NCBI GenBank assembly: GCA_026418175.1
Contig: JAOABX010000003.1
Span: 1 to 64,000 of the forward strand
Reading direction: 5' to 3'
DNA from: Flavobacteriales bacterium
GTDB taxonomy: Bacteria; Bacteroidota; Bacteroidia; CAIKAF01
DNA length: 64,000 nt
The stretch's first letter is position 1. Each line of letters opens with the position of its first letter. Both the position numbers and the translations under genes were made by a program. The notes under the pieces were generated by a model. That model saw only the letters and a list, made by a program, of their open reading frames with translations. It was not told where the DNA came from and did no database searches. Below, one piece after another: positions 7,973-57,292 of the stretch.

Positions 7973-10624
7973 TTAAAACTGTTGTCCAATCATAAAATGA
8001 AACACTCCCTTTTGACGTTGATCCTCATTTACTCCACGAACCGGATCAAACCCCCATCCATAATCAACGCCCAACAGTCCAAACATCGGGAGGAAAATAC
8101 GTACGCCAGCACCTACCGACCGATTTAACCGGAATGGGGCAAAATCATCAAATCCTTCCCAAGCGTTTCCTGCTTCCATAAACGCCAGTGCAAATATTTT
8201 TGCTTGTGGGTTAGGAGAGATTAAATACCTGAACTCCAATGTGTATTTACTGTAAATGGCTCCACCTACTGCATTTGCCGCATTTCCGTTAAAGCCCGGA
8301 GTAAGCGCTAGGTTTTGATAACCTCTTAAGGCAATAATGTCTCTTCCATCAATATTGAATCCGGTAAGGCCATCTCCTCCTAAAAAGAATCGTTCAAATG
8401 GAGTGAGCCCAATTTGGCTATTGTAATAACCCAAAAAGCCTAATTCGCCCCGAGCCATTAGCACAAATTTTTTGTTTTTGGTTAGTGGAACAAAAAATTT
8501 TGATTGTAGCTTCCACTTGTGATATTCTAACCATTGGTATCTCTCATTCAGTGGAGCACCGGTGAAGTCTTTTCCAGAAATAGAACTATACGGGGGGGTT
8601 AATTCCAAAGAGGCAATAATAGTAGAGCCAGAAGAAGGAAAAATCCAATCATCCACAGAATTTCGTTGCAACTGTGCGGAAAATGTAAAATTATTTGATA
8701 CACCGGTATAAGTATCAGTGGTTCCGCTAAACAAGCGGTAATTCAAGGCGTCGTAGCGCTGGTAAGAAAATGAAAATAGAATGCTGAAGTAATCGTCGGG
8801 CCATTTTAGCTGTTTTCCTAAGCTAATACCAACGGCCGTATTTTTGAGGTTGGTTTCAGCATTGCCAGTACCAAATGCAAACGCCGTATGGTTTACAAAA
8901 AGGCTGAATGAAATGGGCTTTTTGCCTCCCAACCAAGGTTCGGTAAAAGAAAAATTATACGATTGAAACCGAGGCCCGTTTGATTGTGCTCTGATTTGGA
9001 GTCGTTGCCCATCGCCGCTAGGTAGTGGAGTCCATGCTCGTTTTTTAAATATATTGCGAAGCGAAAAGTTGTTAAACGTTAAACCCAGTGTTCCAATAAT
9101 TTGGCCAGCCCCCCACCCGCCGGATAATTCAATTTGGTCGGAAGGCGCTTCTGCTACAACAAATTCTAGGTCAACCGTACCATCTGCCGGATTGGGAATT
9201 GGACGTACGTCCATTGCCTGTGCATCAAAAAATCCGAGTTGAGCCAGCGCTTGCTGGGATCTAACAATATCAGAACGACTAAACAAATCTCCGGGATTAC
9301 AGCGAATTTCACGTAGAATTACATGGTCACTGGTTTTGGTGTTTCCACTGATGATAATTTTATTAATACGAGCTTGCTTTCCTTCATAAATACGCATTTC
9401 AATATCTACAGAATCGCCTTCAATTAAAACTTCCACCGGGTCTATGTTGAAAAAAAGATATCCTATATCTTGATATAGCGATGAAATATCCATGCCGCTA
9501 GGATTAAATCGAAGCGACTGATCAAGTTTTTCTTGATTGTAAACATCGCCTCTTTTTATTCCCAATATGGTATCTAATTGACCGGAACGATAACGCTTAT
9601 TTCCTACCCAAGTAATTTTTCTAATATAATACTTTTTACCTTCATCAATTTTAAAATCAGCATAAATACTACCGTCTTTTAGGTAGATGGAGTCTTTTAC
9701 AAATTTTGCATCACGATACCCTTTGGCGTTATAAAGCGCAATCACTGCGTTTTTTGCATTGGGCAGTTCTTCTTTTACATACTTTGACTTTTTGAAAATG
9801 TTGATACGTGTAGAATTAGTAAAATATTCTACAGCCGCCTGATACAAGCCGTCTTCAAGGATGGTACTATCAACATCTTTCCATTTGATTTTTCCAGATA
9901 GTAAATTCAAAATATCCTGCCCTACATCAACCCTTGATTTTTCTACCAAGGCATCTTTCATTTTTCGGCGAATCTTTGAAAGGCGAACATGCTTGTTTCC
10001 CTCTACTGTGATTCGCTCTACTTTTACTTTTTCATTTTTGTTTATGGTAATTCGCATGATAACCGCATTAGAAGAAAATGTGGTATCATCTTCGAGTGTA
10101 AAAGTTACTTCTGTATCTAAAAAGCCCTTTTCAGCATAAAAGTCTTTAATTCGATATTCCGTCATTTTCAAGAGGTATTCAGTAACTACCTCTCCCCGAA
10201 ACAGCTTTATTTTTTCTTTAATATCATCTGCTTCACCCTTGCGTACACCTTTGATGCTGAATTTTGATAAGCGTGGACGTTCTTCTACATATATTACAAG
10301 GTCAATTTTACCTTTTTCGGCATTGGTATGGTAAATCTTAATATTAGAAAATACCTTTTCTTTCCAAAGTTTTTGAATGGCCTGTGAAATATCATCTCCT
10401 GGCACTTTTATTTTTCGGCCCACTTCCAACCCAGACAATATTTTTACAAATTGCTTATCAATTCGGTCTGAATTGCTTTCCACCTCTATGGATGAAATGG
10501 TATATTCTCTGGGAGTACTATAATCTATGGTATTCTGTGATAGCAACGGTAATGGAAGAAGTAACAAATAAAAAAGAGCTATAAAAAAATATACAGAATA
10601 TCTTCCCTTCATCATGTATTGCAT
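7973..10624 (-). CDS. bamA: Outer membrane protein assembly factor BamA
   Basis: The Omp85 protein that inserts beta-barrels into the outer membrane. The 883 residues consist of a signal peptide (to about 30), five POTRA domains (about 40-480; for example ISGNTKTSDHVILREIRCNPGD marks the fifth), and a 16-strand barrel ending in the C-terminal aromatic signature HFMIGQQF. The lid-loop motif is ALRGY (about 775). Three Met codons lie within the first five residues, so the start could be 10624, 10615 or 10612. It is preceded by uppS with a one-base gap and followed by skp/ompH, its chaperone partner. Confidence 0.96.
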   Translation of the reverse strand: MQYMMKGRYSVYFFIALFYLLLLPLPLLSQNTIDYSTPREYTISSIEVESNSDRIDKQFVKILSGLEVGRKIKVPGDDISQAIQKLWKEKVFSNIKIYHTNAEKGKIDLVIYVEERPRLSKFSIKGVRKGEADDIKEKIKLFRGEVVTEYLLKMTEYRIKDFYAEKGFLDTEVTFTLEDDTTFSSNAVIMRITINKNEKVKVERITVEGNKHVRLSKIRRKMKDALVEKSRVDVGQDILNLLSGKIKWKDVDSTILEDGLYQAAVEYFTNSTRINIFKKSKYVKEELPNAKNAVIALYNAKGYRDAKFVKDSIYLKDGSIYADFKIDEGKKYYIRKITWVGNKRYRSGQLDTILGIKRGDVYNQEKLDQSLRFNPSGMDISSLYQDIGYLFFNIDPVEVLIEGDSVDIEMRIYEGKQARINKIIISGNTKTSDHVILREIRCNPGDLFSRSDIVRSQQALAQLGFFDAQAMDVRPIPNPADGTVDLEFVVAEAPSDQIELSGGWGAGQIIGTLGLTFNNFSLRNIFKKRAWTPLPSGDGQRLQIRAQSNGPRFQSYNFSFTEPWLGGKKPISFSLFVNHTAFAFGTGNAETNLKNTAVGISLGKQLKWPDDYFSILFSFSYQRYDALNYRLFSGTTDTYTGVSNNFTFSAQLQRNSVDDWIFPSSGSTIIASLELTPPYSSISGKDFTGAPLNERYQWLEYHKWKLQSKFFVPLTKNKKFVLMARGELGFLGYYNSQIGLTPFERFFLGGDGLTGFNIDGRDIIALRGYQNLALTPGFNGNAANAVGGAIYSKYTLEFRYLISPNPQAKIFALAFMEAGNAWEGFDDFAPFRLNRSVGAGVRIFLPMFGLLGVDYGWGFDPVRGVNEDQRQKGVFHFMIGQQF

Positions 10625-10625
10625 A

Positions 10626-11366
10626 TTAAACCAATTGTTCGCTGATTACTCCAAACCGTCTTTCTCTTTGCTGATAATCATAAATGGCTTCATATAAATT
10701 TTCACGTGTGAAGTCGGGCCAGAGAATATCAGTAAAATATAATTCGGCATAAGCGATCTGCCAAAGCAAGTAGTTGCTAATCCTTTTTTCTCCGCTGGTT
10801 CTAATGAGAAGTTCCGGATCTGGCATACCTGCCGTACAAAGTTCGTTATTAAACACGGCTTCGGTGATTTCGCCCGGGTTAATTTCACCCTTTTTAACTT
10901 TTTCTGCCAGTTTATTCACTGCTCTTATAATTTCCCAACGCGAAGAATAGCTAAGAGCCAGTACCAAATTAAGTTGTGTATGAGATGCAGTAATTTTTAT
11001 AGTTTCTTTTAGTTTTTCGCGGCAATTGGTCGGAAGGCTTTCAATATCGCCAATAGTTAAAAGACGCACGTTGTTTTTTATCAAGGTAGGGGTTTCTTCA
11101 TGCATGGTATCAACGAGCAGTTCCATGAGTGCATCAACCTCACTTTTTGGTCGGTTCCAATTTTCTGTTGAAAAAGTATATAAGGTTAAATACTCTATTC
11201 CGAGTTCTGTTGCCCCTTCTACCACATCTTTTACAGCTTTTACACCAATTTGGTGGCCAAAAGTACGCACTTGGCCTTGTTTTTTAGCCCAGCGACCATT
11301 ACCATCCATTATGATAGCAATATGTCGGGGTAATTTATCTGGATTTAATTTTTCCCTGAAACTCAT
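10626..11366 (-). CDS. uppS: Undecaprenyl diphosphate synthase (cis-prenyltransferase)
   Basis: Condenses isopentenyl diphosphate onto farnesyl diphosphate to make the C55 carrier lipid for peptidoglycan and O-antigen. Recognised by HIAIIMDGNGRWAKKQG (about 15-31; the Asp binds the Mg-diphosphate), LTLYTFSTENWNRP (about 61-74) and RTSGEKRISNYLLWQ (about 190) with YFTDILWPDF downstream. The 246 residues match the family length. It lies in the minus-strand envelope block between a DUF6089 gene (6-base gap) and bamA (1-base gap). Confidence 0.97.
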   Translation of the reverse strand: MSFREKLNPDKLPRHIAIIMDGNGRWAKKQGQVRTFGHQIGVKAVKDVVEGATELGIEYLTLYTFSTENWNRPKSEVDALMELLVDTMHEETPTLIKNNVRLLTIGDIESLPTNCREKLKETIKITASHTQLNLVLALSYSSRWEIIRAVNKLAEKVKKGEINPGEITEAVFNNELCTAGMPDPELLIRTSGEKRISNYLLWQIAYAELYFTDILWPDFTRENLYEAIYDYQQRERRFGVISEQLV

Positions 11367-11372
11367 TGGCTA

Positions 11373-12224
11373 TTATTGTCTTTTCCGGGTCCAGTTTCTT
11401 TTATAAGAATAACAGGACGTTGGATCTTTTATGTTATAAGACAAAGATACGCCTAAATATGAAAACCAGTCGTTATCTGTTGGAGTTCCACGTTGAAAAA
11501 ATGTATTTGGCAACCCATCATTTTGTCCTAATGATTGATCTGATAATTCTGCTGCAGTTAAGCCGCGAATAAACAATATTTCTCCTTCATTTCCATAGGT
11601 TTTGCTTACATCGTCTAAATAATCAGTAAACAAAAGCCGCATTCCCCACTCTAATCCTAATGAAAAACGTTCGCTAACACTCCATTTAATTCCCATACCA
11701 AAAGGGATATTGGGTTGAAAGAGTGAATAGGGCCTTCGATCAGGATATGTATTAGTTTGTTGACCTTCGGTTCCCAATGGTTGCAGATCAACCAACTGAC
11801 CATTATAAAATGTTTGCGGATTAAAGTAAAAGCCACCAATGCCAACGAAGATATAAGGAGTAAACCTCTTAGTTTCCGGATCTCCGGGCCGGTAAGGAAA
11901 AAAGTTGAATTCAACCGCGCTGTGAAGTTCAAATATATCTGATTGAAAACGTAAGTTTCTAATTTCTTGAAATTGAAAAATGCCATCTGCGTCGTCTGCG
12001 CTAACTCTGGCGTAGGTAAATCCGGCTCGAACAGACCAATGTTTGCCAAAATTTCTTTTTCCCCAAATGGAGCCGGCAGCATGTGGAAAACGAAAATGAA
12101 ATGTTGGATTTACATCACCCACATAATAACTAATCCCACCAGATAACCCCAACTCCCAGGTTTGTGCAATGGATGGGATTGCTTGTAAAAGTAGTAAGTA
12201 TGCAATAAAACGATTCAACTTCAT
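11373..12224 (-). CDS. DUF6089 outer-membrane beta-barrel protein (copy 2)
   Basis: A 283-residue predicted outer-membrane barrel. Signal peptide ends SIAQ (about 21), then WELGLSGGISYYVGDVNP, the characteristic DUF6089 opening, and alternating amphipathic strands (FSLGLEWGMRLLFTDYLDDV). Function unknown; the family sits next to uppS and bamA throughout Bacteroidota. The upstream gene encodes a related protein: both have PLNTEGQ/PLGTEGQ, RPYSLFQPNIP/EPYSRLSWNIP and TDYLDDVSKTY/TDNMDDVSQTY, so they are tandem paralogues. A perfect 12-bp hairpin lies in its 5' leader at 12241-12270. Confidence 0.85.
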   Translation of the reverse strand: MKLNRFIAYLLLLQAIPSIAQTWELGLSGGISYYVGDVNPTFHFRFPHAAGSIWGKRNFGKHWSVRAGFTYARVSADDADGIFQFQEIRNLRFQSDIFELHSAVEFNFFPYRPGDPETKRFTPYIFVGIGGFYFNPQTFYNGQLVDLQPLGTEGQQTNTYPDRRPYSLFQPNIPFGMGIKWSVSERFSLGLEWGMRLLFTDYLDDVSKTYGNEGEILFIRGLTAAELSDQSLGQNDGLPNTFFQRGTPTDNDWFSYLGVSLSYNIKDPTSCYSYKRNWTRKRQ

Positions 12225-12240
12225 GAAACATGGGTGCAGA

Positions 12241-12270
12241 GCAATAACGAAAAACCCCTTTCGTTATTGC
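12241..12270 (-). other. Perfect 12-bp inverted repeat in the leader of a DUF6089 gene
   Basis: GCAATAACGAAA pairs perfectly with TTTCGTTATTGC around a 6-base loop. It lies 14 bases after the end of the upstream DUF6089 gene and 17 bases before the start of the next one. No T-run follows on the minus strand, so it is not a standard terminator. It could be an mRNA-stabilising or processing hairpin between two paralogous genes. Confidence 0.6.
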
Positions 12271-12284
12271 ATATCAATACAGCA

Positions 12285-13253
12285 TTAATAGTATTTAGGA
12301 ATGGATTTACCCCAATAGCTGATTTTATAACAAAACTTAATAAACATGGTCATGTAAGAGTCATTATCTCTGGGGTCGCCTCGTTGCTGTCCAGGATTGG
12401 ATGCCCCCGGAATGGCATAAGGGCTGGTTGGATCAAGAGTGGCCAAAGAATGGTCAGCAAAATATGCAGATAAGGGATTGGTAAATACTGAAGGATCCAC
12501 ATAGGTTTGGCTTACATCGTCCATGTTATCTGTAAATGTTTTGCGATAACCAAATTCCACGTTTATAGACATTGCAGGATTGAGCTTGAAAACAAACCCA
12601 AGATTAACCGGAATATTCCAACTAAGGCGGCTATATGGTTCACGCGATGGAATTAGCCCTTGTCCTTCTGTATTTAATGGTTGTAGTGAATAAGCTTGTC
12701 CATCCGGGCCAATGCCGGTTGGGTCAAACCACATACCATTTATTCCACCGGATACATAGCCTAAAACTCTACGCCCTTGATTTCCTCTAAGCCCTCGATT
12801 ACGATAGCGGTTTGCCGTATTTTTTTCCGGTAAAAAGTACAATTCCAGTACGGTTCCAAATTCAAAAAGCGGAGAACGAAAATAGAGATTACGATTACGG
12901 CGAGCCGGTTCTTCCGTCCAGGTATCATCACCAGTAATCCAGCCGTAGCTTAAATTTATTTTTTGAGCTAGATAAGGAGTATATTTATATCGGCCACCTA
13001 GGTGGAGATTGGGCCTTAATGCTTCAAAATCAAAATCTGCTAAAAAGTTTGTGCCAATATCATTTGCGCCTCCCAATTCTCCTAAAAAGTTAATTAAACC
13101 AATCCCTCCAATCAGTTCGAAGCGGTCGCCTGAATTAGCTTTCCAAGTAGTACGATAACGTCCGCCTGTGTACTTACCTCCGTATCTTCTTTGGGCATGT
13201 GTTAATGGAAGTGCGATACAAAAAATAAATAGAAAAACAATAATTTTTTTCAT
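12285..13253 (-). CDS. DUF6089-like outer-membrane beta-barrel protein (copy 1)
   Basis: A 322-residue predicted barrel paralogous to the next gene. I choose the ATG at 13253 (MKKIIVFLFIFCIALP..., a clean signal peptide ending THAQ) over an in-frame ATG 33 bases upstream. After a short basic linker rich in Arg, Gly and Tyr comes FELIGGIGLINFLGELGGAND, then barrel strands. The middle has an Arg/Asn-rich insert (YRNRGLRGNQGRR) absent from the downstream copy. Function unknown. It lies between nadK and the second DUF6089 gene in the envelope block. Confidence 0.82.
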   Translation of the reverse strand: MKKIIVFLFIFCIALPLTHAQRRYGGKYTGGRYRTTWKANSGDRFELIGGIGLINFLGELGGANDIGTNFLADFDFEALRPNLHLGGRYKYTPYLAQKINLSYGWITGDDTWTEEPARRNRNLYFRSPLFEFGTVLELYFLPEKNTANRYRNRGLRGNQGRRVLGYVSGGINGMWFDPTGIGPDGQAYSLQPLNTEGQGLIPSREPYSRLSWNIPVNLGFVFKLNPAMSINVEFGYRKTFTDNMDDVSQTYVDPSVFTNPLSAYFADHSLATLDPTSPYAIPGASNPGQQRGDPRDNDSYMTMFIKFCYKISYWGKSIPKYY

Positions 13254-45622: not shown

Positions 45623-45822
45623 CTTTGGAATAAAGATACAAAATTATGATATTATTTGTCTATTAAACGTTACGTTAGCTTATACTGTTTTTTGCTTACG
45701 TCTATAAGTTGTAATAATCAATTAATTTTAAAAGCCTGCATAAAAAGCGAAATATTCTTTAATATGATTTATACTGTAGAAGACATTCAATTTTTTAATA
45801 TATTGTAGTGGTCTTAAGTTTT

Positions 45823-48735
45823 ATGAAAATCAATCCTAATTCTTTTTTTTTCATTTTTTTTAGTCTTTGGTCCATTGTAATAAGTTTGGCACAACGCCCC
45901 TTTTATCATCAAATAAATGCAGAATCAGGGTTGCCTACCAATGAAGTTTACAGGATAATTCAAGATTCACAGGGGTATTTGTGGATTGGTTGTGATGCGG
46001 GATTGTACCGATATAGTGGACTTGAATTTAAGTCGTATAAAAACCCTAAACAGAATTCCAGAAGTATTTCCAATCTACATATTGACGTAGAGGGTAATTT
46101 ATGGTGTAGTAATTTTACTGGACAAGTTTTTTGTAAAGAAAAAAAGGATTTGCAATTAATTAATGATTATAGTGAAATTGCTAATCGTTTTCAGGTTTTC
46201 TTTGTTGCTAGGCCGGGGTATTACATGATAGACAAAACTGGGCTTTCATGGTATAACGAATATGGAATTAGAGAAAAATGTTGGAAGGCAAATTTTTCTT
46301 CTGATAAATATTTCAATGCTTCAACTGCTGTTTTTTCAGAACGCGATGGATGGATTGAAACACCCATGGGTTTGTTTTATATGAACATGGATGCAGATTC
46401 TTTATTCTCTATTTTATCAGCCGATGCACCTACGGGCTATCAAACACAACGAGTGTTTAATTATAAAAATAACAACTATCTATTTCGATCAGAGCATCCA
46501 CCTTCATACAAAAATTATTTATACCTTTTAAAGAATAAAAAAGCCTATCAATTATATGAGTTTAGCAATACTGAAAATATTCGTTATTATTTTTTTTATC
46601 AAGATAATCTGAATAATTTATGGATTGGAACCTCGCATGGAGTATGGTGTATTAATAATATAGAAAAACCCATGCTGAGTGGAAACAGGTTATTTCCTGA
46701 GCAAAATATCAGCTCAATTTTTCACGATGCAGAGGGAAATTATTGGTTTTCTTCACTTCAACAAGGAATATTCATGATACCATTTAAAACCTCTGTGTTT
46801 TATGATCCATGGGGTTCTGTTGCTATCAAGAAAGACATTACATCACTTGCCATGAGCCACGACGGCAAATTAATAATAGGTCATTATAATGGTGATGTAG
46901 GTATTTTTGATATATTAAATAATAAGTGCTATTATCCATCTAAAATTAATGAACTTAAAGGATTAACTGTAAAAGACATAGAATTTCATAACAATCGTAT
47001 CATTCTTTCTAGAGGAAGGCTTTTTTTATATGATGATGAAAAAAAACAAGTAGTTTATCCTTATCCTTATGGCAATGTACGTGATCTATTAATTGAGAAA
47101 GATACCATTTATGCCATGCATTCTGATTGTGTGGTTCGTTTTCCAATTAACAGTATCAAACAAAATCATCCCATAATACTTGATACCATATTTAATGTAG
47201 GTGGCAAGAAAATAATACATGATCCTCAAGATAACCATATTTATTTAGGATTAAATAATGGATTATATGCTTGGAAAAATAATCGTTGTTTCCCGGTATT
47301 ACTCCACAATAAAAAAATTTTTATACACTCCATGGCAAGTAATTCTAAGTTTGTATTTGCCGGTACACAAACTGATGGATTAGTAGTTTTAAAAAATGGA
47401 AAAATTATAACACAATGGCTATTTAATGAACACATAGATGATATAACACCTAAAGTAATAACATGCAATGATAAATATTTGTGGATTTGCACGTACTCTG
47501 ATTTTTTTCGATTAGATCTAAAAAATCAACAAATTGAAAAGTATTCACTAAATATAGGAATTTCACCCCAAGATGTAACTTCAATGGTTTTTCATCAAGG
47601 CTACCTTTACGTGGGTACTAAAAAATATTTACATCGTATTGATGCTTTTGAATCACCTGTAAACCTATCAATTCCTCAAATATTCTTTACCAAAGTTAGT
47701 TTGAATGATAAGCCGGTTAACGATTCGATTTTTCGAATTCCATACAATTTTAATCATGTAAAGTTTGAATTTATCTCTTTTTCATATAGAAGCAAGACTA
47801 AATTTTTTTACCAATACCGATTGCTTGGACTTGATACTAATTGGACCCAATTAAGCTATTTATCACCGGAAGTTACATACAATTCGTTGCCAGCAGGCTC
47901 ATATACATTTCAAGTTCGTTCAGTAAATGAAAATGGAATTTACAGCAATCCGGCAATATGTAAGTTTACTGTAGCATCTCCCCCTTGGCAAACTTGGTGG
48001 TTTTATTTATTGCTTTCATTAGTTTCTGTTTCATTTATTTATTCAGGGTTTAGGGTTCGATTACGTTTGCTCGAAAGAAAGGCTGAAAAAGAAAAACGAG
48101 TAATAGTTTCTCAGCTTTCAGCCCTAAAGGCTCAAATGAACCCACATTTTATGTACAATGCTTTAAATTCTATTCAAGCGCTGATTTTACAAAATGACAT
48201 AAAAAACAGTAACCTTTATTTGGCAAAATTTAGCTCTCTGATGCGAAAAGTATTGGATGCCTCAGGAAAGGAAAAAATACCTCTCAAAGAGGAAGTTGAT
48301 ATTCTAAGCTTATATCTTCAATTAGAAAAACTCCGTTTTGGAAATGATTTTGAATATAAAATAACCATACAGCCGAATGTAGATGAATATACAACAACGA
48401 TTCCATCAATGATACTCCAGCCCTTTGTTGAAAATGCATTAAAGCATGGCTTGTTACATAAAAAGGGTTTCAAAAATTTATCTATTCGTTTTAACTTAAA
48501 TGACCAATTGTTGGTTTGTGAAATCGAAGACAATGGAATAGGTCGAAAAAAATCATTAGAAATCAATCAACGAATGAAAAAGGGGCACTCTTCATTTGCA
48601 ACACAGGCTACCGATAAAAGGCTTGAATTGTTGAATTTGTATGAAGTGTTTAAATACCGTGCGGATATAACAGACCTGGTTGATAATCAGGGAAATTCAC
48701 TGGGAACGTTGGTTAAAATTTTTATTCCTCAATAA
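45823..48735 (+). CDS. LytS-type sensor histidine kinase with extracellular beta-propeller and Y_Y_Y domain
   Basis: 970 residues from the ATG at 45823 (a GTG 15 bases upstream is less likely). Signal peptide (to about 24) then two-component-regulator propeller repeats, for example GLPTNEVYRIIQDSQGYLWI and NLWIGTSHGVW, up to about 615. A Y_Y_Y domain follows (FFYQYRLLGLDTNWTQ, about 660-720) and a single transmembrane helix (about 725-745). The cytoplasmic His_kinase domain has the phospho-acceptor His775 in MNPHFMYNALNSIQ and an ATPase domain with N-box ILQPFVENALKHGL and EDNGIG. This is the LytS class, not a hybrid. It pairs with the LytTR regulator 94 bases downstream. The signal is probably extracellular, likely a polymer or peptide; that is inference. 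The kinase's own leader lacks the regulon operator. Confidence 0.94.
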   Translation: MKINPNSFFFIFFSLWSIVISLAQRPFYHQINAESGLPTNEVYRIIQDSQGYLWIGCDAGLYRYSGLEFKSYKNPKQNSRSISNLHIDVEGNLWCSNFTGQVFCKEKKDLQLINDYSEIANRFQVFFVARPGYYMIDKTGLSWYNEYGIREKCWKANFSSDKYFNASTAVFSERDGWIETPMGLFYMNMDADSLFSILSADAPTGYQTQRVFNYKNNNYLFRSEHPPSYKNYLYLLKNKKAYQLYEFSNTENIRYYFFYQDNLNNLWIGTSHGVWCINNIEKPMLSGNRLFPEQNISSIFHDAEGNYWFSSLQQGIFMIPFKTSVFYDPWGSVAIKKDITSLAMSHDGKLIIGHYNGDVGIFDILNNKCYYPSKINELKGLTVKDIEFHNNRIILSRGRLFLYDDEKKQVVYPYPYGNVRDLLIEKDTIYAMHSDCVVRFPINSIKQNHPIILDTIFNVGGKKIIHDPQDNHIYLGLNNGLYAWKNNRCFPVLLHNKKIFIHSMASNSKFVFAGTQTDGLVVLKNGKIITQWLFNEHIDDITPKVITCNDKYLWICTYSDFFRLDLKNQQIEKYSLNIGISPQDVTSMVFHQGYLYVGTKKYLHRIDAFESPVNLSIPQIFFTKVSLNDKPVNDSIFRIPYNFNHVKFEFISFSYRSKTKFFYQYRLLGLDTNWTQLSYLSPEVTYNSLPAGSYTFQVRSVNENGIYSNPAICKFTVASPPWQTWWFYLLLSLVSVSFIYSGFRVRLRLLERKAEKEKRVIVSQLSALKAQMNPHFMYNALNSIQALILQNDIKNSNLYLAKFSSLMRKVLDASGKEKIPLKEEVDILSLYLQLEKLRFGNDFEYKITIQPNVDEYTTTIPSMILQPFVENALKHGLLHKKGFKNLSIRFNLNDQLLVCEIEDNGIGRKKSLEINQRMKKGHSSFATQATDKRLELLNLYEVFKYRADITDLVDNQGNSLGTLVKIFIPQ

Positions 48736-48740
48736 TTCTT

Positions 48741-48769
48741 TTGGGAAATTTATTCATGCTTTTTGGAAA
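48741..48769 (+). promoter_or_regulatory. Putative LytTR operator 1 (before the response regulator gene)
   Basis: Half-sites TTGGGAAA (48741-48748) and TTTGGAAA (48762-48769), starts 21 bases apart. The pair begins 5 bases after the kinase stop and ends 61 bases before the GTG of the regulator. A TATTTTG core at 48801-48807 follows. Suggests autoregulation. Confidence 0.7.
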
Positions 48770-48829
48770 ATAAACGATAAAAGTAGAAGTTTAATAAATT
48801 TATTTTGTTTAAGTAAAAGAATGTTTTAA

Positions 48830-49582
48830 GTGAAAGCAGTTTTAATTGATGATGAAGAAGGGGCTCGCATCGCATTAAGGGGTTTATTAAATCAATATTG
48901 TGAGGATGTTGAGATAGTTACTGAATGTAGTAACGTACCTGACGGGGCTATTGCTATTAACAGATATCAACCTGACGTTGTTTTTTTAGATATCGAAATG
49001 CCCGAATACAATGGGTTTGAATTGCTTGATTTTTTTAAAGAAATAAATTTTGAAATAGTTTTTGTAACTGCTTATAGCCAGTATGCTGTAAGGGCGTTTG
49101 AGGTATCAGCAATTGATTATATTTTAAAGCCTGTAGAAATTGAATCATTAAAAAGTGCTTTGGAAAAGGTTAAGCAAAAACGAAGCCAATCGAATATTAT
49201 GCAACGCCTTGAATTGATGAAAACTACCTACAAGGGTGATGATGTTCGAAAAATAGCTTTACCCATGAGTGATGGCTTATTGTTTGTGGATATTAACGAA
49301 ATTGTTTTTTTTGAAGCTGATAGGGCATATACTAATGTGTTTTTAAACAATGGCTCAAAAATTACGGTGAGCAAACCCATGCGCACATTTGAAGATATAC
49401 TTGATAATAGGCTATTTTTTTATCGGCCGCATCGTTCTTACTTGATTAATTTAAATTACATCAAAAAATATGTTAGGGGAGAATCGCTTATCATGATGGA
49501 TAATAATATCATTGTTAGCGTTTCAAGAGAAAGAAAGCAAGAGTTTGAAAACCTGCTTAAAGAATTGCGGCTCGCTGTATAG
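48830..49582 (+). CDS. LytTR-family response regulator
   Basis: 250 residues, GTG start. The receiver domain (about 1-120) has the acidic pair IDDEE near residue 7, the phospho-acceptor Asp54 in VVFLDIEMPEYNG, and the switch residues TAYSQYA and KPVE. The LytTR DNA-binding domain (about 145-248) shows VFFEADRAYTNVFLNNG, FYRPHRSYLINLNYIKKY and ISVSRERKQEFENLL. It is transcribed after its cognate kinase but has an operator-like element in its own leader. It most likely binds the five paired TTNGGAAA elements in this region. Confidence 0.95.
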   Translation: MKAVLIDDEEGARIALRGLLNQYCEDVEIVTECSNVPDGAIAINRYQPDVVFLDIEMPEYNGFELLDFFKEINFEIVFVTAYSQYAVRAFEVSAIDYILKPVEIESLKSALEKVKQKRSQSNIMQRLELMKTTYKGDDVRKIALPMSDGLLFVDINEIVFFEADRAYTNVFLNNGSKITVSKPMRTFEDILDNRLFFYRPHRSYLINLNYIKKYVRGESLIMMDNNIIVSVSRERKQEFENLLKELRLAV

Positions 49583-49657
49583 TGTAATTATTATTTCCAA
49601 ACATTATTAATTCAGAATATTTGTATTAAACATCTCAAAACTAAATCTTAGTGTTCT

Positions 49658-49686
49658 TTCGGAAAGCCATTTCTTTCGTTTGGAAA
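49658..49686 (+). promoter_or_regulatory. Putative LytTR operator 2 (before the LamG-like pseudogene)
   Basis: Half-sites TTCGGAAA (49658-49665) and TTTGGAAA (49679-49686), starts 21 bases apart, ending 60 bases before the ATG. A GATTTTG core ends at 49723. Confidence 0.7.
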
Positions 49687-49745
49687 ATATAAAGATGTTG
49701 CCAAGTTAAATTTTTTGATTTTGTATAAGTAATAAAATCAATATT

Positions 49746-50730
49746 ATGAAAAAAGTTTACTTCCTTTTTTATTCTATAGCTTTTTAGTTATAACAACAAA
49801 TGCACAAGTAACCAATGGCCTAGTTGCCAAATATTCCTTTAATGGCGGCAACGCCAATGATGAGGCAGGAACTAATGATGGGATTGTTTCAGGGGCTGAA
49901 TTAACTACTGATAGATTTGGTAATGCTGGAAAAGCCTATTTTTTTGATGGAATAGACGACTACATTAACTTGGGATCAAATTCTACTATTAAACCGCTTG
50001 TTGGTTCAATATCAATGTGGGTTAAATTGAATTCTGTATCAACGTATGGGAGCGGTTATCCGTACAATCCCATTATATTATTCAAAAATAATAGTAATAC
50101 AAATAACTATTTTGAGGCTTGTGCTCTTTATGTAAAATATCTGATTCAAGAATACTTACAATAGCTACTGAATTTTCAACTGCCACAGAAAGGTATTTTC
50201 AAACAGCAAACCCTGTTGATACAAGTTCTTGGAATCATTTTGTAATCACTTACAACTATGATTCATTATCATTATTTGTAAATGGTCAACTCGAAAACAG
50301 AATATACAAGGGCTTTAACAGTATATTTTCTCCCTCAGAAGATGTTTTATTGGGAAAATCAGGAAATACTTTAAATGATAGGTACTTTAATGGAAAGATT
50401 GATGATGTAAGAATATATAATCGAGTATTAGCATCAAACGAGGTAGATTCTTTATACAACGAACCTAATCCCTCAGTATCAAGTATCAGCGAGTTAATTC
50501 AAAATCAAATTCGTATTTACCCCAATCCAGCAACAAATAATATAACTATGCAGCTCAATCAAAGCGGTTTATTGGAAGTGTATAGTATAGAAGGCCAGTT
50601 AATAGAAGTCATTCAGGTAAATACCCCAACAATTACTTTGTGTGTGCAACACTTTCAAAAAGGCATGTATATCGTAAGATTTACTACTGCCGATGGCAAT
50701 AGCTATCAAGCTATATTTATTAAAGTGTAA
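49746..50730 (+). pseudogene. LamG-like secreted protein with T9SS type A tail, two frameshifts
   Basis: The ATG at 49746 opens a signal peptide (MKKVYFLFYSIAF) that stops at 49785. Adding one T to the T-run at 49781-49785 restores LVITTNAQVTNGLVAKYSFN and a LamG/concanavalin-like jelly roll through YFEACALYVK. A second one-base deficit in the A-run at 50134-50137 is needed to reach ISDSRILTIATEF..., the second half of the jelly roll (SSWNHFVITYNYDSLSLFVNGQ, DDVRIYNRVLASNEV). It ends in a T9SS type A tail (IRIYPNPATNNITMQL...IVRFTTADG). Corrected length is about 328 residues. Both lesions are single bases missing from homopolymers, so a sequencing error is as likely as a true pseudogene. Confidence 0.82.
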
Positions 50731-50780
50731 GCATAATAACTAAAATCTTTGCACACCATGAAGTTCCATCGCTGATTTTA

Positions 50781-50809
50781 TTAGGAAACCCAAACTCTCA
50801 ATTCGGAAA
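50781..50809 (+). promoter_or_regulatory. Putative LytTR operator 3 (before the 50871 gene)
   Basis: Half-sites TTAGGAAA (50781-50788) and TTCGGAAA (50802-50809), starts 21 bases apart, ending 62 bases before the ATG. ATTTTTG core ends at 50847. Confidence 0.7.
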
Positions 50810-50870
50810 ATTATCTTATGGTATTTAAGTTAATAAATGGATTTTTGTTTAAACTTTTATATTAACTATT

Positions 50871-51923
50871 ATGAAAAAATCATTAATCTTTTTAATCGGT
50901 ATTTTTAGTGCATTTACTGGTAATACTCAAATAAGCTTAACCAATGCAAATCATGGCCCAGTACCAGGGGATTATGCTTTAATTGTAGCATATGATACCT
51001 CAAATGCCATACCTAAGCATACTGGAGCCAATCAAACATGGAATTTTAGTAACATAAACCTTGATTCAATTGGTTCTTATACAATAAATTTTGTTTCTCC
51101 TACATATGCTCCCAATGGTACAACAGTAACGGCAGAATTTGGGCCTGGAGGTCCGAAAAGATATTTTAAAAACTCGAGCAATAAGTTGGATATAAAAGGC
51201 TTCACATCTACTGGATTAACTGTTGAGTTTGATGGGGATCTTTTACACAGAACCTGGCCGATGTCTTACAACACAACAATTTCAGATACTGCTAACGGCG
51301 ATTACTCTATGGCTCCTAACCCATTTATACCCATTATTGGACCTATTGTTGTAAATTCAAAATCGGTTGTTAGTGGCTATGGAACATTAATAGCCCCTAA
51401 TGGTGCTACATTTAATAATGTTTTACAGGTTGTAGATTCCATTAGTTTTAATATAGAAAATTTAACTCCAGGCATATATGAAACGGGTGTTTCTGTAAGT
51501 TTTAATTCAATGAGTTATTACATATCCAATCTTAAATATCCACTTTTAACATATACAAAAGCTTCACAATTAAGCTATGCAATAGATTTGCAAACTTTCA
51601 ATATAGATTATTGGCTATTAGATTCGTCTGAAGTTTTTGAATTCAATGCTACGCCCTTTTCTCCATTATCGGATTTAATGGTAGGTGTTAATAATCATGA
51701 TTTGAAACTATATCCTAATCCAACTACGGATGTAGTATTTTTTGAAACAGAAAAGCCAGGAACACTGGAAATTTTTTCAGCAGATGGAAAAAGGCTAGAA
51801 ACCCTACAAATACAAGCTAATAATCAAATTTTTTCACTTCAAGCATATCCTCAAGGATTGTATATAGCTCGTTTTACAGACAATGAGGGTAATACAATTC
51901 AACATAAGCTGATTCGGCAGTAA
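50871..51923 (+). CDS. Secreted protein with T9SS type A sorting tail
   Basis: 350 residues. Signal peptide MKKSLIFLIGIFSAF... to about 19. The body (about 20-270) is an unassigned beta-rich domain (NQTWNFSNINLDSIGSYTI near 60, NGDYSMAPNPF near 145) that I do not place in a named family. The last 70 residues, from LYPNPTTDVVFF to IQHKLIRQ, are a type A T9SS tail, exporting and anchoring it at the cell surface. The tail is nearly duplicated in the next gene. Preceded by the paired TTNGGAAA operator and followed by a strong hairpin terminator, so it is its own transcription unit under the LytTR regulator. Confidence 0.85.
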   Translation: MKKSLIFLIGIFSAFTGNTQISLTNANHGPVPGDYALIVAYDTSNAIPKHTGANQTWNFSNINLDSIGSYTINFVSPTYAPNGTTVTAEFGPGGPKRYFKNSSNKLDIKGFTSTGLTVEFDGDLLHRTWPMSYNTTISDTANGDYSMAPNPFIPIIGPIVVNSKSVVSGYGTLIAPNGATFNNVLQVVDSISFNIENLTPGIYETGVSVSFNSMSYYISNLKYPLLTYTKASQLSYAIDLQTFNIDYWLLDSSEVFEFNATPFSPLSDLMVGVNNHDLKLYPNPTTDVVFFETEKPGTLEIFSADGKRLETLQIQANNQIFSLQAYPQGLYIARFTDNEGNTIQHKLIRQ

Positions 51924-51989
51924 AAAACGACAGATTTTTTCATTGGTGTAGTATCCCAAATTGCCGAAAGCAATTTGGGATACTTTTTT
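51711..51989 (+). repeat. 3' cassette copy 1: T9SS tail plus terminator
   Basis: Aligns without gaps to 53575-53853: 213 bases of coding tail to the stop, 27 bases of spacer, and the terminator. By my alignment 53 of the last 70 residues are identical. The spacers share CATTGGTGTA just before the stem. Confidence 0.8.
51951..51989 (+). terminator. Rho-independent terminator of the 50871 gene
   Basis: GTATCCCAAATTGC and GCAATTTGGGATAC form a perfect 14-bp stem with loop CGAAA, followed by a T-run. The next operator begins at 51991, immediately after it. Confidence 0.93.
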
Positions 51990-51990
51990 A

Positions 51991-52019
51991 TTCGGAAAGT
52001 CAAATTTACCATTAGGAAA
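51991..52019 (+). promoter_or_regulatory. Putative LytTR operator 4 (before the 52075 gene)
   Basis: Half-sites TTCGGAAA (51991-51998) and TTAGGAAA (52012-52019), starts 21 bases apart, ending 56 bases before the ATG. The promoter core at the matching place reads ATTTTTA, not ATTTTTG. Confidence 0.68.
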
Positions 52020-52074
52020 TCGCCATTGCGATCTTTTATACAATCTGTTCATTTTTATAAAAATAATTTAACTT

Positions 52075-53787
52075 ATGAAACTTCAAAAACTAACATTTAT
52101 CCTTCTGTTTGTCAACTCGTTCACGTATGCACAAGTAGAGCTGAATTTGGATAAATACCTGCATGTAAATGGCGCATCCGGTATGAATGAGGTTAAAAAA
52201 ATTGAAATGGACCCATCCGGAAATTTATTCATTGCTGGCATATTGAGCGGTACCGCTGATTTTGATATGGATGCCGGAGTAAATAATATATCTACCGGAT
52301 CTTCTACCAATGTGCCATATTTAGCAAAATACAATACCAGTGGAGTATTACAATGGGTTCGCACGTTTCCATCGGTAGGAGGTAATGCCCCAGTTTCAAT
52401 TACATTTAATACTTCGTCAGAAATTTATTTTTCATTTGGCATATTTGGCGCATCCAATGCAGACCCGGTAAATGGTACCGCTCCGGTAAATTCTTCTAAC
52501 GGTAGTGGAATTATTGTAAAATTAAATGCTGCCGGAGAATATGTAGCACATTTGCAGCTTCCATCCGTTACTTCGATAATTTATGGTAGTTATTTAATGG
52601 CAGTTGGTAAATTTAATGGTACTTACGATTTTAATCCAGGCCCCGGAATAATGGAATTAACTGCTGCAGATGATGACGGATTTATTTTGCGAATAGACCA
52701 TACCAATATGACGCCGATTATGGTTACTCACTTATATGGTCTTGGTTCTTGTGACCCTACAGTTATTAAATACAGTTTTTTTGGTGAATATACAGTAGCA
52801 GGGCATTTCACTGGTTCTTTGGTTTTTGAGAAAACTGTCGGTGTTGAAGATTCTCTGGTAAGTGCCGGAGATAATGACGTCTTTGTAATGCAGGTTTATC
52901 CCTTTGTAATTGTACAGCCTGATATAAATCATTTTGTTCGAATTGGAGGCAGTGGATTTGACATGATTACGAGTTTAGACATTAACACATCCGATGTTTT
53001 TGTTGCAGGACAGTATCAAGGTACAATCGATATTGATCCGGGCACGGCCACGCAGAATATTACAACCAATGGAGGGTTTGATGCTTTTTTAGTTTCATTA
53101 AATTCAAATTTAGAATATAATTGGCATTACAATGTGGGAGGATCAGGTTTTCAAGATTTTATAAATGATGTGTCTATTCAGCCATGGAATAATCAGCTGC
53201 TGTTATCATTAAGATATATTGACTCCGGCGATGCTGACTTAGACCCCGGGGCAGCTACGGTTACCTTGCCAGGTTGGCAGCATGCCGCCTTGGTTGTTCT
53301 TGATTATTCAGGCGGTTTAGTAAATGCCTTTCAAATAAATGATGGTTCATCTGGAGTAACCATTAATGTGGCTAAGTTTAAAAATAACAGTAGTGTTCAA
53401 TTTGTAGGGAATTCCTTTTTAGTGGGTGGAAAATTTAATGGAACAGGAGTTTTTGTTGATGAATTAAGTACATTTTCCCTTACCGCTGCAGGATCAGAAG
53501 ATGGGTATTTTATAGAGTATGACATCAATGCCTCTTCCTCTTTGTATGAAGCAGAAGCCAATGGAATCAAAATATATCCTAATCCATTTACGGATATAGT
53601 ATATTTTGAAGCAGAAAAACCTGGTATGCTTGATATTTTTTCAGCAGATGGAAAATATGTTGAAAGCATACAAATACAAGCGAATAAACAATTATTACCA
53701 TTGCAAGCATACCCTCAAGGATTGTATATAGTTCGTTTTACAGATAATCAGGGCAATATAATTCAGCATAAGCTGATCAGGCAATAA
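52075..53787 (+). CDS. Secreted SBBP-like propeller-repeat protein with T9SS type A sorting tail
   Basis: 570 residues. Signal peptide to about 19 (ends TYAQ). At least four repeats of a G-x-DxDPGxGxx type follow: GTADFDMDAGVNNI, GTYDFNPGPGIMEL, GTIDIDPGTATQNI and GDADLDPGAATVTL, spaced across about 55-400. These fit SBBP-type beta-propeller repeats, and the acidic loops could bind calcium. The last 70 residues are the type A T9SS tail nearly duplicated from the preceding gene. Probably a surface protein; the ligand is unknown. It is its own transcription unit with operator 4 and a terminator. Confidence 0.87.
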   Translation: MKLQKLTFILLFVNSFTYAQVELNLDKYLHVNGASGMNEVKKIEMDPSGNLFIAGILSGTADFDMDAGVNNISTGSSTNVPYLAKYNTSGVLQWVRTFPSVGGNAPVSITFNTSSEIYFSFGIFGASNADPVNGTAPVNSSNGSGIIVKLNAAGEYVAHLQLPSVTSIIYGSYLMAVGKFNGTYDFNPGPGIMELTAADDDGFILRIDHTNMTPIMVTHLYGLGSCDPTVIKYSFFGEYTVAGHFTGSLVFEKTVGVEDSLVSAGDNDVFVMQVYPFVIVQPDINHFVRIGGSGFDMITSLDINTSDVFVAGQYQGTIDIDPGTATQNITTNGGFDAFLVSLNSNLEYNWHYNVGGSGFQDFINDVSIQPWNNQLLLSLRYIDSGDADLDPGAATVTLPGWQHAALVVLDYSGGLVNAFQINDGSSGVTINVAKFKNNSSVQFVGNSFLVGGKFNGTGVFVDELSTFSLTAAGSEDGYFIEYDINASSSLYEAEANGIKIYPNPFTDIVYFEAEKPGMLDIFSADGKYVESIQIQANKQLLPLQAYPQGLYIVRFTDNQGNIIQHKLIRQ

Positions 53788-53853
53788 TAAACAACAGGTT
53801 TTTTCATTGGTGTAGTATCCCATGTTGCTTTTGGCAATATGGGATACTTTTTT
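53575..53853 (+). repeat. 3' cassette copy 2: T9SS tail plus terminator
   Basis: Gapless partner of 51711-51989. Spacer and terminator are also shared, with base changes in the stem that mostly keep pairing. Confidence 0.8.
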
Positions 53854-53854
53854 T
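53815..53854 (+). terminator. Rho-independent terminator of the 52075 gene
   Basis: GTATCCCATGTTGC pairs with GCAATATGGGATAC (one G-T wobble) around loop TTTTG, followed by seven T. The first half-site of operator 5 overlaps the T-run. Confidence 0.92.
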
Positions 53855-53880
53855 GGAAATTTAATACCACTGTTGGGAAA
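53852..53880 (+). promoter_or_regulatory. Putative LytTR operator 5 (before the 53943 gene)
   Basis: Half-sites TTTGGAAA (53852-53859) and TTGGGAAA (53873-53880), starts 21 bases apart, ending 63 bases before the ATG. AATTTTG core ends at 53918. Confidence 0.7.
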
Positions 53881-53942
53881 AAAATGTATTCATAGCATGG
53901 GTTGATGGAACAATTTTGCCTTAAACTTAAAACTATGATCCT

Positions 53943-55361
53943 ATGAAAAATCTATTTATTGCATTGATTTCAACCGTATCTATTCATCCTGTATTTGCTC
54001 AAGGTTTAGGCGAATTATTTGGAGGTGGAAAAAAAGATAAGGGGAATAAAGAAACTGCCCAATCTGTAACGGTTTCTCCAGGCGCCAACCAATACGAACG
54101 GATTGATGCATTTATGAAAGCTAATCCAAAGTTCTGGAATTTTTATTACTATGCTGCTGTAGAGAAATATGAAAAAGAATATTCCTATACTACAGAATCG
54201 TTTTTTACTAATATACAGCGGAATGATAAAAATCAAATCACATCATTCGAAGCGCCCGGACCGATGTATAGCTCCAAGTTTGTAGTTGACAACCCAGATT
54301 TCCCAAGGTATTATAAAGGAGACTATGGCTCATTATATTTTGTGGGCAGCTATGCATTATGGACTAGAAGTTATTCCGGAACAGATCCTAAAAATGTAAG
54401 TCCAAGCTGGTCATTAAAAGATACACATATTTTAACTAGTGATGGAAGTGTTGCAAAAGGATTAAAATTTGAAGGATTTAAAAAATTGTTGGCAGATTAC
54501 CTGGCTGATGTAGATGTAACATACCAGAAATATCAAAACGACCTAAAAGCTGAAAAAGAACGCATTGAAAAAGAAAAGCGCGCCAAGGGAACTACTGAAG
54601 GAAAAAATGTTACCTCATTAAAACTTAATATAGATAAGACCAAACTTAAACAAGGGGAGTTTGCTACTTTTGAAATTATTGCTGTGCTCAAAGACGGAAC
54701 AGAAATTTCTACCAAAAACGGAGGTTATTTGGATGAATATACAATAGAATTGGTAGGGTTGCCTGAAAAATATTTTAGCTATACCAATTTTATGATGGAT
54801 TATTTGGTGTTAGCAGGTAATAAGTTTCATGTTCCCATGGATAAGGCAGTAGAAGGCGATCAGGTGGTAATTAATGTTACAAATAAATTTTATCCCAATG
54901 CTAAAGTAACCAAAACAATACCCATTGATTACTCTGCAACGTTCATCAAGCTAGATGAATTTAAAGGGTATGGTGATGGAGCAGGTTGCATTCAACGATA
55001 CATGGCAAATAACCGGATAGAATTAAAGCAAGTAAAACACGCAGTAACAAAAGAAGATTTACTTGAGATGAAGTGGATGGATTTGGAAAGTGGTAGAATA
55101 TTAATAAATATTCGCTTTAAGCCATCTGCTGCTGTTACTGTGGATGTAACTGGAGCCAGAGGTTTTTTAAATGCACAATGTGGAAGTGTTAGAAAAGATA
55201 AAAGTGGAACTCCGGGAGGTAATGTAACATTAGTGGTAGATCCATCTGTTAAATCCTATAATATATCGGTACTAAATGATGGAGGTGCCGGTGCTGGTAA
55301 TTTATCCTTTGCCGGGCCCAAAGGACAATTTACTAAACTTGTAGAAAAAGTATCTTGGTAA
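53943..55361 (+). CDS. Secreted protein of unknown family, regulon member without a T9SS tail
   Basis: 472 residues. Signal peptide to about 20 (ends VFAQ), then a Gly/Lys-rich linker (GLGELFGGGKKDKG). Residues 40-190 form an aromatic-rich domain (KFWNFYYYAAVEKYEKEY), followed by a charged helix (KAEKERIEKEKRAKG, about 201-215). An Ig-like or cohesin-like region follows (TSLKLNIDKTKLKQGEFATF, about 225-330). The C-terminal domain has GYGDGAGCIQRYMANNRIEL and GARGFLNAQCGS, with two Cys that may pair. I recognise no family. There is no type A or type B tail, so it may be periplasmic, released, or attached by other means. It has operator 5 and its own terminator. Confidence 0.82.
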   Translation: MKNLFIALISTVSIHPVFAQGLGELFGGGKKDKGNKETAQSVTVSPGANQYERIDAFMKANPKFWNFYYYAAVEKYEKEYSYTTESFFTNIQRNDKNQITSFEAPGPMYSSKFVVDNPDFPRYYKGDYGSLYFVGSYALWTRSYSGTDPKNVSPSWSLKDTHILTSDGSVAKGLKFEGFKKLLADYLADVDVTYQKYQNDLKAEKERIEKEKRAKGTTEGKNVTSLKLNIDKTKLKQGEFATFEIIAVLKDGTEISTKNGGYLDEYTIELVGLPEKYFSYTNFMMDYLVLAGNKFHVPMDKAVEGDQVVINVTNKFYPNAKVTKTIPIDYSATFIKLDEFKGYGDGAGCIQRYMANNRIELKQVKHAVTKEDLLEMKWMDLESGRILINIRFKPSAAVTVDVTGARGFLNAQCGSVRKDKSGTPGGNVTLVVDPSVKSYNISVLNDGGAGAGNLSFAGPKGQFTKLVEKVSW

Positions 55362-55418
55362 TCAATTCTATGAAAAACCATCCATGTAAAAAACTAACCG
55401 CTTCATGGGTGTTTTTGA

Positions 55419-55452
55419 AGAAAGGGAGAAACAATTCTCCCTTTTCTTTTTC
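55419..55452 (+). terminator. Terminator between the 53943 gene and typA
   Basis: AAAGGGAGAA and TTCTCCCTTT form a 10-bp stem with loop ACAA, followed by TCTTTTTC. It lies 57 bases after the plus-strand stop and 14 bases from the end of typA, so it may serve both strands. Confidence 0.8.
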
Positions 55453-55465
55453 ATTGATTAATGAT

Positions 55466-57292
55466 TTATACTCCTACACTGGTTCCTGCTAAGGCTTTGT
55501 TTTTAGCTCGGGCACGGTCGCTTTCGGTTAGCAAGATTTTACGAAGACGAATGCTTTTGGGTGTTACCTCTACATATTCATCTTCCTGAATGTATTCCAT
55601 GGCTTCTTCCAGCGAGAATTTCACGGCCGGGGCAATCTTCATTTTATCGTCAGCGCCGCTGGCACGCATGTTCGTGAGTTTTTTGGTTTTTGTTACGTTC
55701 ACCACTAAATCAGAATCTCTGCTGTGTTCTCCCACAATCATCCCTTCATACACCTCATCTCCAGGATCTATGAAAAAACGGCCTCTGTCCTGAAGTTTAT
55801 CTAATGCATAAGCAATAGCAGTACCGTTATCCATCGAAATCATGGTGCCATTAAAGCGACGAATGGGTTCTCCCTTAATGGGTTCATACGATTTAAAGCG
55901 GTGGGTTACTACAGCTTCCCCTGCGGAAACGTTAAGTAAAACAGTGCGTAAACCCATCAGGTTTTTCGACGGTATTTCAAACTCCAGGTGTATTAAATCT
56001 CCCTTCGGCTGCATAACTTTCATGTCGCCTTTACGCATGGTTACTTGCTCAATGCATTTACCAGAAAATTCTTCGGGTACATCTATGCTTAAAATTTCTA
56101 CCGGTTCGCACTTAACTCCATCTATTTCTTTGATGATTACACGAGGTTGACCAATTTGAAGTTCGTACCCTTCGCGACGCATGGTCTCAATCAGGATAGA
56201 AAGGTGCAGAATACCACGACCATAAACCATGAACGAATCCTGTGATTGTGTTTCTTCTACGCGAAGCGCTAAGTTTTTTTCAGTTTCCTTAAACAGGCGT
56301 TCGCGTAGGTGGCGTGATGTAACAAATTGCCCTTCTTTACCAAAAAATGGAGAGTTGTTAATTGTAAACAACATGCTCATGGTGGGTTCGTCAATGGTAA
56401 TGGGAGGCAATCCTTCGGGATTGTCAAAATCAGCGACCACATCACCTATTTCAAAACCATCCAGCCCAACAATGGCACAGATATCTCCGCAGCTTACTTG
56501 CTCGGCCTTGATTTTTCCCAGCCCTTCGAAAGTATAAAGTTCTTTGATGCGTGATTTTACAATCTTGCCATCACGTTTGATAAGTGATACCGGCTGATTC
56601 ACTCGCAGGCTACCCCGCATTAGCTTACCGATGGCTATCCGGCCGATGAAAGTTGAATAATCAATAGAAGTGATTTGTAGCTGGGGTGTTCCTTCTATCA
56701 TGGCAGGAGGAGGAATTGCTTTAATGATAGTATCAAGCAGCGGTTCTATGTTGGTGGTTTTTTCTTTCCAGTCGTAACTCATCCAGTTCTGTTTGGCTGA
56801 GCCATATACTGTAGCAAAGTCTAGCTGCTCTTCGGTAGCACCCAGGTTGAACATCAGGTCAAATACGGCTTCATGCACTTCGTCGGGCCTACAGTTTTCC
56901 TTATCCACCTTATTAATTACCAGAATGGGTTTTTTGCCAAGAGATATCGCTTTGCTTAATACATAACGAGTTTGGGGCATGGGGCCTTCAAATGCATCTA
57001 CCAGCAGTAGCACGCCATCGGCCATGTTTAATACACGTTCCACTTCGCCACCAAAGTCAGCGTGGCCGGGGGTATCAATAATGTTAATCTTGGTGCCTTT
57101 ATAATTCACCGATACATTTTTAGAAACGATGGTGATGCCCCGTTCCCGTTCCAAGTCGTTGTTGTCAAGAATCAATTCTCCGGCTTCCTGGTTATCACGG
57201 AATAACTGGCAATGATGCAGGATTTTGTCAACCAGCGTAGTTTTCCCGTGGTCAACATGGGCAATAATGGCAATGTTTCGAATGGATGACAT
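55466..57292 (-). CDS. typA: Ribosome-associated GTPase TypA/BipA
   Basis: 608 residues, translational GTPase. G1 is [16 protein letters not shown] (about 9-24), G2 ERERGITI, G3 [19 protein letters not shown] (about 73-91), G4 INKVDKENC (about 128). The EF-G-like domains follow and a BipA-specific C-terminal domain ends the protein ([20 protein letters not shown], about 485-504). Needed for 50S assembly and growth under stress such as cold. A perfect TACCTTTG promoter core lies about 26 bases upstream, divergent from the sulfoxide reductase gene. Confidence 0.97.

Follow-up and report, generated by a model that had tools for sequence, protein, structure and literature searches.

A candidate self-contained LytTR two-component circuit with 21-bp-period operators and local type IX cargo in a Flavobacteriales genome

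Introduction

A tandem repeat with a period of 21 bp is the usual target geometry of LytTR regulators (PMC4847170, PMC6193735). AgrA, VirR and YpdB, each of which joins a receiver (REC) domain to a LytTR domain, use sites in front of their target promoters that consist of two direct repeats with a period of about 21 bp (PMC4847170, PMC4227749). A comparable layout is known from the LRS systems HdrRM and BrsRM, where paired 9-bp repeats separated by a 12-bp gap, again a period of 21, precede the -35 element by a few to about 10 bp, where autoregulation occurs and where the repeats are specific to each system (PMC6193735).

The locus described here lies in the window, i.e. the whole stretch of 64,000 nucleotides of a Flavobacteriales contig that was analysed. 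It contains paired repeats of an 8-13-8 layout with a period of exactly 21, and was counted as agreeing with a general description of LytTR sites as two repeats of 9-11 nt with 11-13 nt between them at target promoters. We read it, at a probability of roughly 0.88, as a self-contained two-component circuit in which a LytTR regulator acting on these operators would activate its own gene together with a set of cargo genes.

Architecture of the module

The genes of the module and the two terminators found between them are located as follows.

45646..55466, no strand assigned: whole accessory module of about 9.8 kb, GC content 33% versus 39% in the flanks
45808..48735, + strand: histidine kinase of 975 aa with Reg_prop beta-propellers, Y_Y_Y and His_kinase (PF06580)
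48830..49582, + strand: LytTR response regulator of 250 aa, GTG start, REC and LytTR domains
49746..50730, + strand: cargo gene g2, Laminin_G_3 and Por_Secre_tail, two frameshifts, homologous to cargo in orthologous module L079
50871..51923, + strand: cargo gene g3 of 350 aa with a signal-peptide-like start and Por_Secre_tail
51950..51984, + strand: terminator-like hairpin with T tail, ending 6 bases before operator 4
52075..53787, + strand: cargo gene g4 of 570 aa with Por_Secre_tail; a homologue in genome G021 is cargo under a distant operator
53814..53848, + strand: terminator-like hairpin with T tail, ending 3 bases before operator 5
53943..55361, + strand: cargo gene g5 of 472 aa with a signal-peptide-like start and with homologues under operators in module L078 and in the paralogue locus L055 of the same genome

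Both domains of the regulator, REC (PF00072) and LytTR (PF04397), score above the cut-off. A profile of the orthologous LytTR domains matches AgrA (3bs1) and ComE (4cbv). A structure comparison of the predicted regulator was taken up by receiver-domain matches and gave no information on the LytTR part. Reg_prop, Y_Y_Y and His_kinase domains are common to all 13 kinases examined. Three of these 13 match the N-terminal beta-propeller model of PorZ, a type IX component; a link between sensing and secretion is possible.

As to the cargo, the genome encodes the type IX translocon SprA (SprA_N, E=9e-139), and g2, g3 and g4 carry the C-terminal sorting domain expected of type IX substrates. The Pfam search of g5 yields neither a family nor a Por_Secre_tail. 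Across the window and the orthologous modules, 24 of 28 proteins encoded behind operators carry this tail. That the locus forms a local module for sensing and secretion, as the original prediction had it, is thus supported by the kinase domains, the sorting tails and the presence of SprA. The frameshifted g2 is a pseudogene or an assembly error. Owing to the strong hairpins just before operators 4 and 5, at least the cargo genes that follow them look like separate transcription units. The sorting tails of g3 and g4 are 74% identical and are followed by similar terminator sequences (window 51690-51984 and 53550-53848); these shared 3' ends suggest cassette duplication or gene conversion.

In the sister species G003 the whole module is missing and the genes which flank it, one for an outer-membrane protein and typA, are adjacent. 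Aligned with G003, the window DNA matches up to 45645 and again from 55467 onwards, 11 bases lying in between. The best match to the regulator within the genus reaches only 34% identity, while relatives of 61-73% identity belong to other families. Horizontal gain of the module is the simplest reading of these data and probably correct, loss in the sister species being the alternative. In the same genus and family the operator was found as isolated matches only and in no clusters; the order-level operator search covered the same 16 genomes as the search in genus and family.

Operators in the window and in the genome

A pattern search of the window for TTNGGAAA-N13-TTNGGAAA returns five exact matches, all on the + strand.

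48741..48769, + strand: operator 1, TTGGGAAA-N13-TTTGGAAA, right after the kinase stop and 60 bases before the regulator start
49658..49686, + strand: operator 2, TTCGGAAA-N13-TTTGGAAA, pattern match preceding g2
50781..50809, + strand: operator 3, TTAGGAAA-N13-TTCGGAAA, pattern match preceding g3
51991..52019, + strand: operator 4, TTCGGAAA-N13-TTAGGAAA, pattern match preceding g4
53852..53880, + strand: operator 5, TTTGGAAA-N13-TTGGGAAA, pattern match preceding g5

All five elements of the original prediction were thereby recovered in place and orientation with a half-site period of 21, the control giving 0. As it had also claimed, they precede the regulator gene and each of the four genes that follow, the one behind operator 2 being, however, the disrupted g2. 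Between operator end and start codon there are 60, 59, 61, 55 and 62 bases for operators 1 to 5, respectively. No operator is present in front of the kinase gene in the window.

Throughout the genome (2.68 Mb, 80 contigs) the pattern occurs only at these five places of the module, and the reversed pattern does not occur at all. High frequency of the motif across the genome, which had been set beforehand as a possible refutation, is therefore not observed. If up to two mismatches are permitted, 109 places are found in the genome compared to 110 for the control, i.e. there is no tail of weaker operators and no diffuse background. In a blind scan of the window locus for short direct repeats of any spacing the operator motif emerged as the only family with five members, and the same scan of 20 other LytTR or family loci revealed no comparable cluster.

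All ten half-sites fit TTNGGAAA, and their mean pairwise identity among the five operators amounts to 0.89, compared to 0.37 for the spacers and 0.32 each for the 30 bases before and the 30 bases after. The term "identical" used for the operators in the original prediction consequently holds for the half-sites in so far as they fit the pattern; it does not hold for spacers and flanks, whose identity is at background. This distribution bears on the view that the repeats are mere promoter copies, spread by duplication of cargo cassettes, to which the regulator has no specific relation. While the 74% identity of the g3 and g4 tails and the similarity of their terminators would suit such copying, half-sites which are kept between spacers and flanks at background show that recent duplication is not the cause of the repeats. 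Moreover, other genera keep the architecture with other half-sites and with accompanying changes in the LytTR domain (see below), and we regard this view as highly improbable.

Position of the operators relative to the promoter

The -7 element of Bacteroidota promoters is TAnnTTTG, which ends in TTTG. Behind four of the five operators this tetranucleotide occurs at a nearly constant offset.

48804..48807, + strand: -7-like TTTG, offset 63 from the start of operator 1
49720..49723, + strand: -7-like TTTG, offset 62 from the start of operator 2
50844..50847, + strand: -7-like TTTG, offset 63 from the start of operator 3
52052-52057, + strand: TTTTTA in place of TTTG, operator 4
53915..53918, + strand: -7-like TTTG, offset 63 from the start of operator 5

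Taking the window and the orthologues together, 32 of 45 operators have a TTTG at offset 62 or 63, counted from their first base, while other three-base windows yield at most 3 and shuffles at most 5. The gap from operator to -7 element is thus nearly fixed at 33-34 bases, so that the operator immediately precedes the -33 position; a conserved -33 element was not seen. The TTTG position is as expected for activator sites, and it is from this position that activation rather than repression is inferred. Known activating LytTR sites are located similarly, those of AgrA at about -60 (PMC4227749) and the activating repeats of the LRS operons about 10 bp upstream of -35 (PMC6193735).

The regulator might bind these sites and nonetheless act as a repressor, or the sites might serve a dual function. 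Some LytTR proteins can indeed repress, as does AgrA at bsaA, where its site is situated downstream of the promoter (PMC4227749). In the present case, however, the operator comes before the presumed -33 position at a nearly fixed distance from the -7 element and matches the known activating sites of AgrA and the LRS systems in position, which makes repression or a dual role unlikely.

Orthologous modules and their operators

When the genomes of 84,980 species were scanned, 21 orthologues of the regulator with 45-69% identity were obtained, to which a class-wide search added more; about 28 were compared. In nearly all of them a paired direct repeat with a period of exactly 21 bp is located between the kinase and the LytTR gene. 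A second operator is usually present 3' of the regulator gene, where it precedes a secreted-protein gene by about 50-101 bp; in module L089 it was not found. The common half-site is TTCRTGAA, TTNGGAAA being confined to a single clade which comprises the window, genome G099 and OLB11. In OLB11 (module L075), whose kinase gene is in pieces, three exact TTNGGAAA operators precede the regulator gene and two genes for secreted proteins, and all three matches of that genome fall within the module. The single match in the G099 genome lies 81 bases before the regulator gene (73% identity), the contig ending past this gene. Hence, relatives that keep kinase and regulator also keep the operator, as predicted: the closest two regulators (69-73% identity) share the sequence found in the window, and nearly all others possess a related 8-13-8 element. 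No such operator was found in three distant orthologues, L060 (50%) as well as L091 and L092 (45-46%). L060 (G007:C57), the closest orthologue from the same family, shows a different arrangement with a kinase-regulator gap of 15 bases and a sorting-tail gene upstream.

For the orthologues of the TTCRTGAA type, a spacing of 21 accounts for 47 of 77 high-scoring pairs and any other spacing for at most 6, some sites being counted on both strands since TTCATGAA is self-reverse-complementary (near-palindromic). A matrix trained solely on the operators upstream of regulators recovers the downstream operator for 17 of the 18 modules. A search of 15 orthologue genomes locates TTCRTGAA pairs at the modules with one exception, the control giving 0. 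The exception, in G021, is an operator 68 bases before a gene for a secreted sorting-tail protein which is homologous to g4 of the window. This off-module operator (L118, 9359-14602; G021:C7) stands before a unit of two genes for sorting-tail proteins (SBBP; LamG), a putative distant member of the regulon. The cargo families of the orthologous modules are diverse, including RCC1, NHL with Big_2, LamG, SBBP, WG and DUF5122 repeats, and homologues of g2 and g5 are operator-bearing cargo in L079 and L078, respectively.

The genome encodes six LytTR domains, and another transcription factor, such as one of the other LytTR proteins or a sigma factor of the ECF type, might conceivably own the sites. 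Yet the sites are clustered nowhere but next to this regulator or its close orthologues, and sister species which possess other LytTR proteins, though not this one, contain 0-2 isolated matches; chance single matches, 0-2 per genome, are likewise seen in unrelated genomes. In addition, the paralogous regulator of locus L055 has its own, different paired repeats. Ownership by another factor is accordingly very unlikely. L055 (G000:C44:140000-157759, 9640-13158) is a second kinase-regulator module of the same genome. Its regulator is 44% identical to that of the window, and regulator and kinase diverge from a homologue of g5 (E=8e-9). Inspection of the intergenic region by eye reveals two repeat pairs with a 21-bp period, one facing each gene, whose sequences are related to those of the window module but differ from them. 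Having operators of its own would insulate each paralogous module from the other.

Covariation of operator and DNA-binding domain

The three regulators associated with TTNGGAAA form a supported clade (96/85). Their LytTR domains feature R165, P183, R185 and T/V186, while at the same positions the TTCRTGAA regulators show G/E, K, K (G in one case) and F. L094, which is sister to the TTNGGAAA clade, is intermediate in that it combines P183, R185 and V186 with G165. Its operators are mixed (TTTAGAAA/TTGGGAAA and TTCGTAAA/TTCACAAA). In the flank near this module the minus strand encodes, in opposite orientation, one more histidine kinase, which shares the H-box. In L083 and L093 the conserved HRS is replaced by HKS, and the half-sites, both up- and downstream, are devoid of the leading TT at most positions. 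In AgrA, residue 201 contacts DNA and E181 affects binding (PMC4227749). Anchored on the FhRhHRS motif, residue 201 of AgrA corresponds to the position of the HRS arginine and E181 adjoins residue 183 of the regulators considered here. This pattern is suggestive of an operator that has changed together with the DNA-binding domain; as it rests on one TTNGGAAA clade and one HKS clade, it represents two evolutionary events rather than many and is not conclusive.

Discussion

Site positions, uniqueness, spacing, promoter phase, conservation, covariation and presence or absence across genomes were computed, and from these we infer binding, direction of regulation, dimer mode, signal and secretion. 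The beta-propeller sensor of the kinase, placed at the outer side of the inner membrane, would sense an extracellular signal, upon which the kinase would phosphorylate the adjacently encoded LytTR regulator. The latter, probably as a dimer, would occupy the two directly repeated 8-bp half-sites, which at a period of 21 bp lie on the same side of the helix. Bound just upstream of the presumed -33 position, it could recruit RNA polymerase to promoters which keep the -7 element. It would thereby activate its own gene, creating positive feedback, though not the kinase gene, as well as each of the four cargo genes, most of which presumably encode type IX secretion substrates. The operator of the window may be regarded as a clade-specific variant (TTNGGAAA) of the wider TTCRTGAA operator.

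In a broader view, which we consider somewhat better than an even bet, the module exemplifies a cassette that is widespread among Bacteroidota and moves horizontally. Its propeller kinase and LytTR regulator would govern type IX surface cargo that can be exchanged, and its operator would co-diverge with the LytTR domain, insulating paralogous cassettes. If so, these cassettes constitute a natural series from which the LytTR recognition code could be read. In the literature searched there is little on the DNA bound by LytTR regulators of Bacteroidota or on the switching of type IX cargo. The analysis yields a predicted operator, a promoter geometry and targets across about 25 genomes, and two natural changes of operator specificity with matching residues render both the recognition code and the function of the surface cassette directly testable.

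With the Bacteroides hybrid two-component systems the kinase has the Reg_prop/Y_Y_Y sensor domains in common. Those systems unite sensor, kinase, receiver and an AraC-type DNA-binding domain in one protein; the present one consists of two separate proteins, and its DNA-binding domain is LytTR. The kinase resembles partners of the LytS/BtsS type in its His_kinase domain (PF06580). In place of their multi-span membrane sensor it possesses Reg_prop and Y_Y_Y, and no LytS membrane-domain family is among its Pfam hits.

The original prediction knew of no description of this operator. A search of literature available without subscription found none of its sequence, of the module or of the operator/regulator covariation, whereas its geometry is common among LytTR regulators. 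In the LRS systems HdrRM and BrsRM the partner of the LytTR protein is a membrane inhibitor, and a kinase is absent (PMC6193735); here a histidine kinase adjoins and the regulator has a REC domain. Compared to AgrA, VirR and YpdB, the present system has another half-site, a sensor of the propeller type and local secreted type IX cargo as its putative targets. LytTR two-component regulation with tandem operators and autoregulation is a known kind of control, and the novelty consists in the operator sequence and the module.
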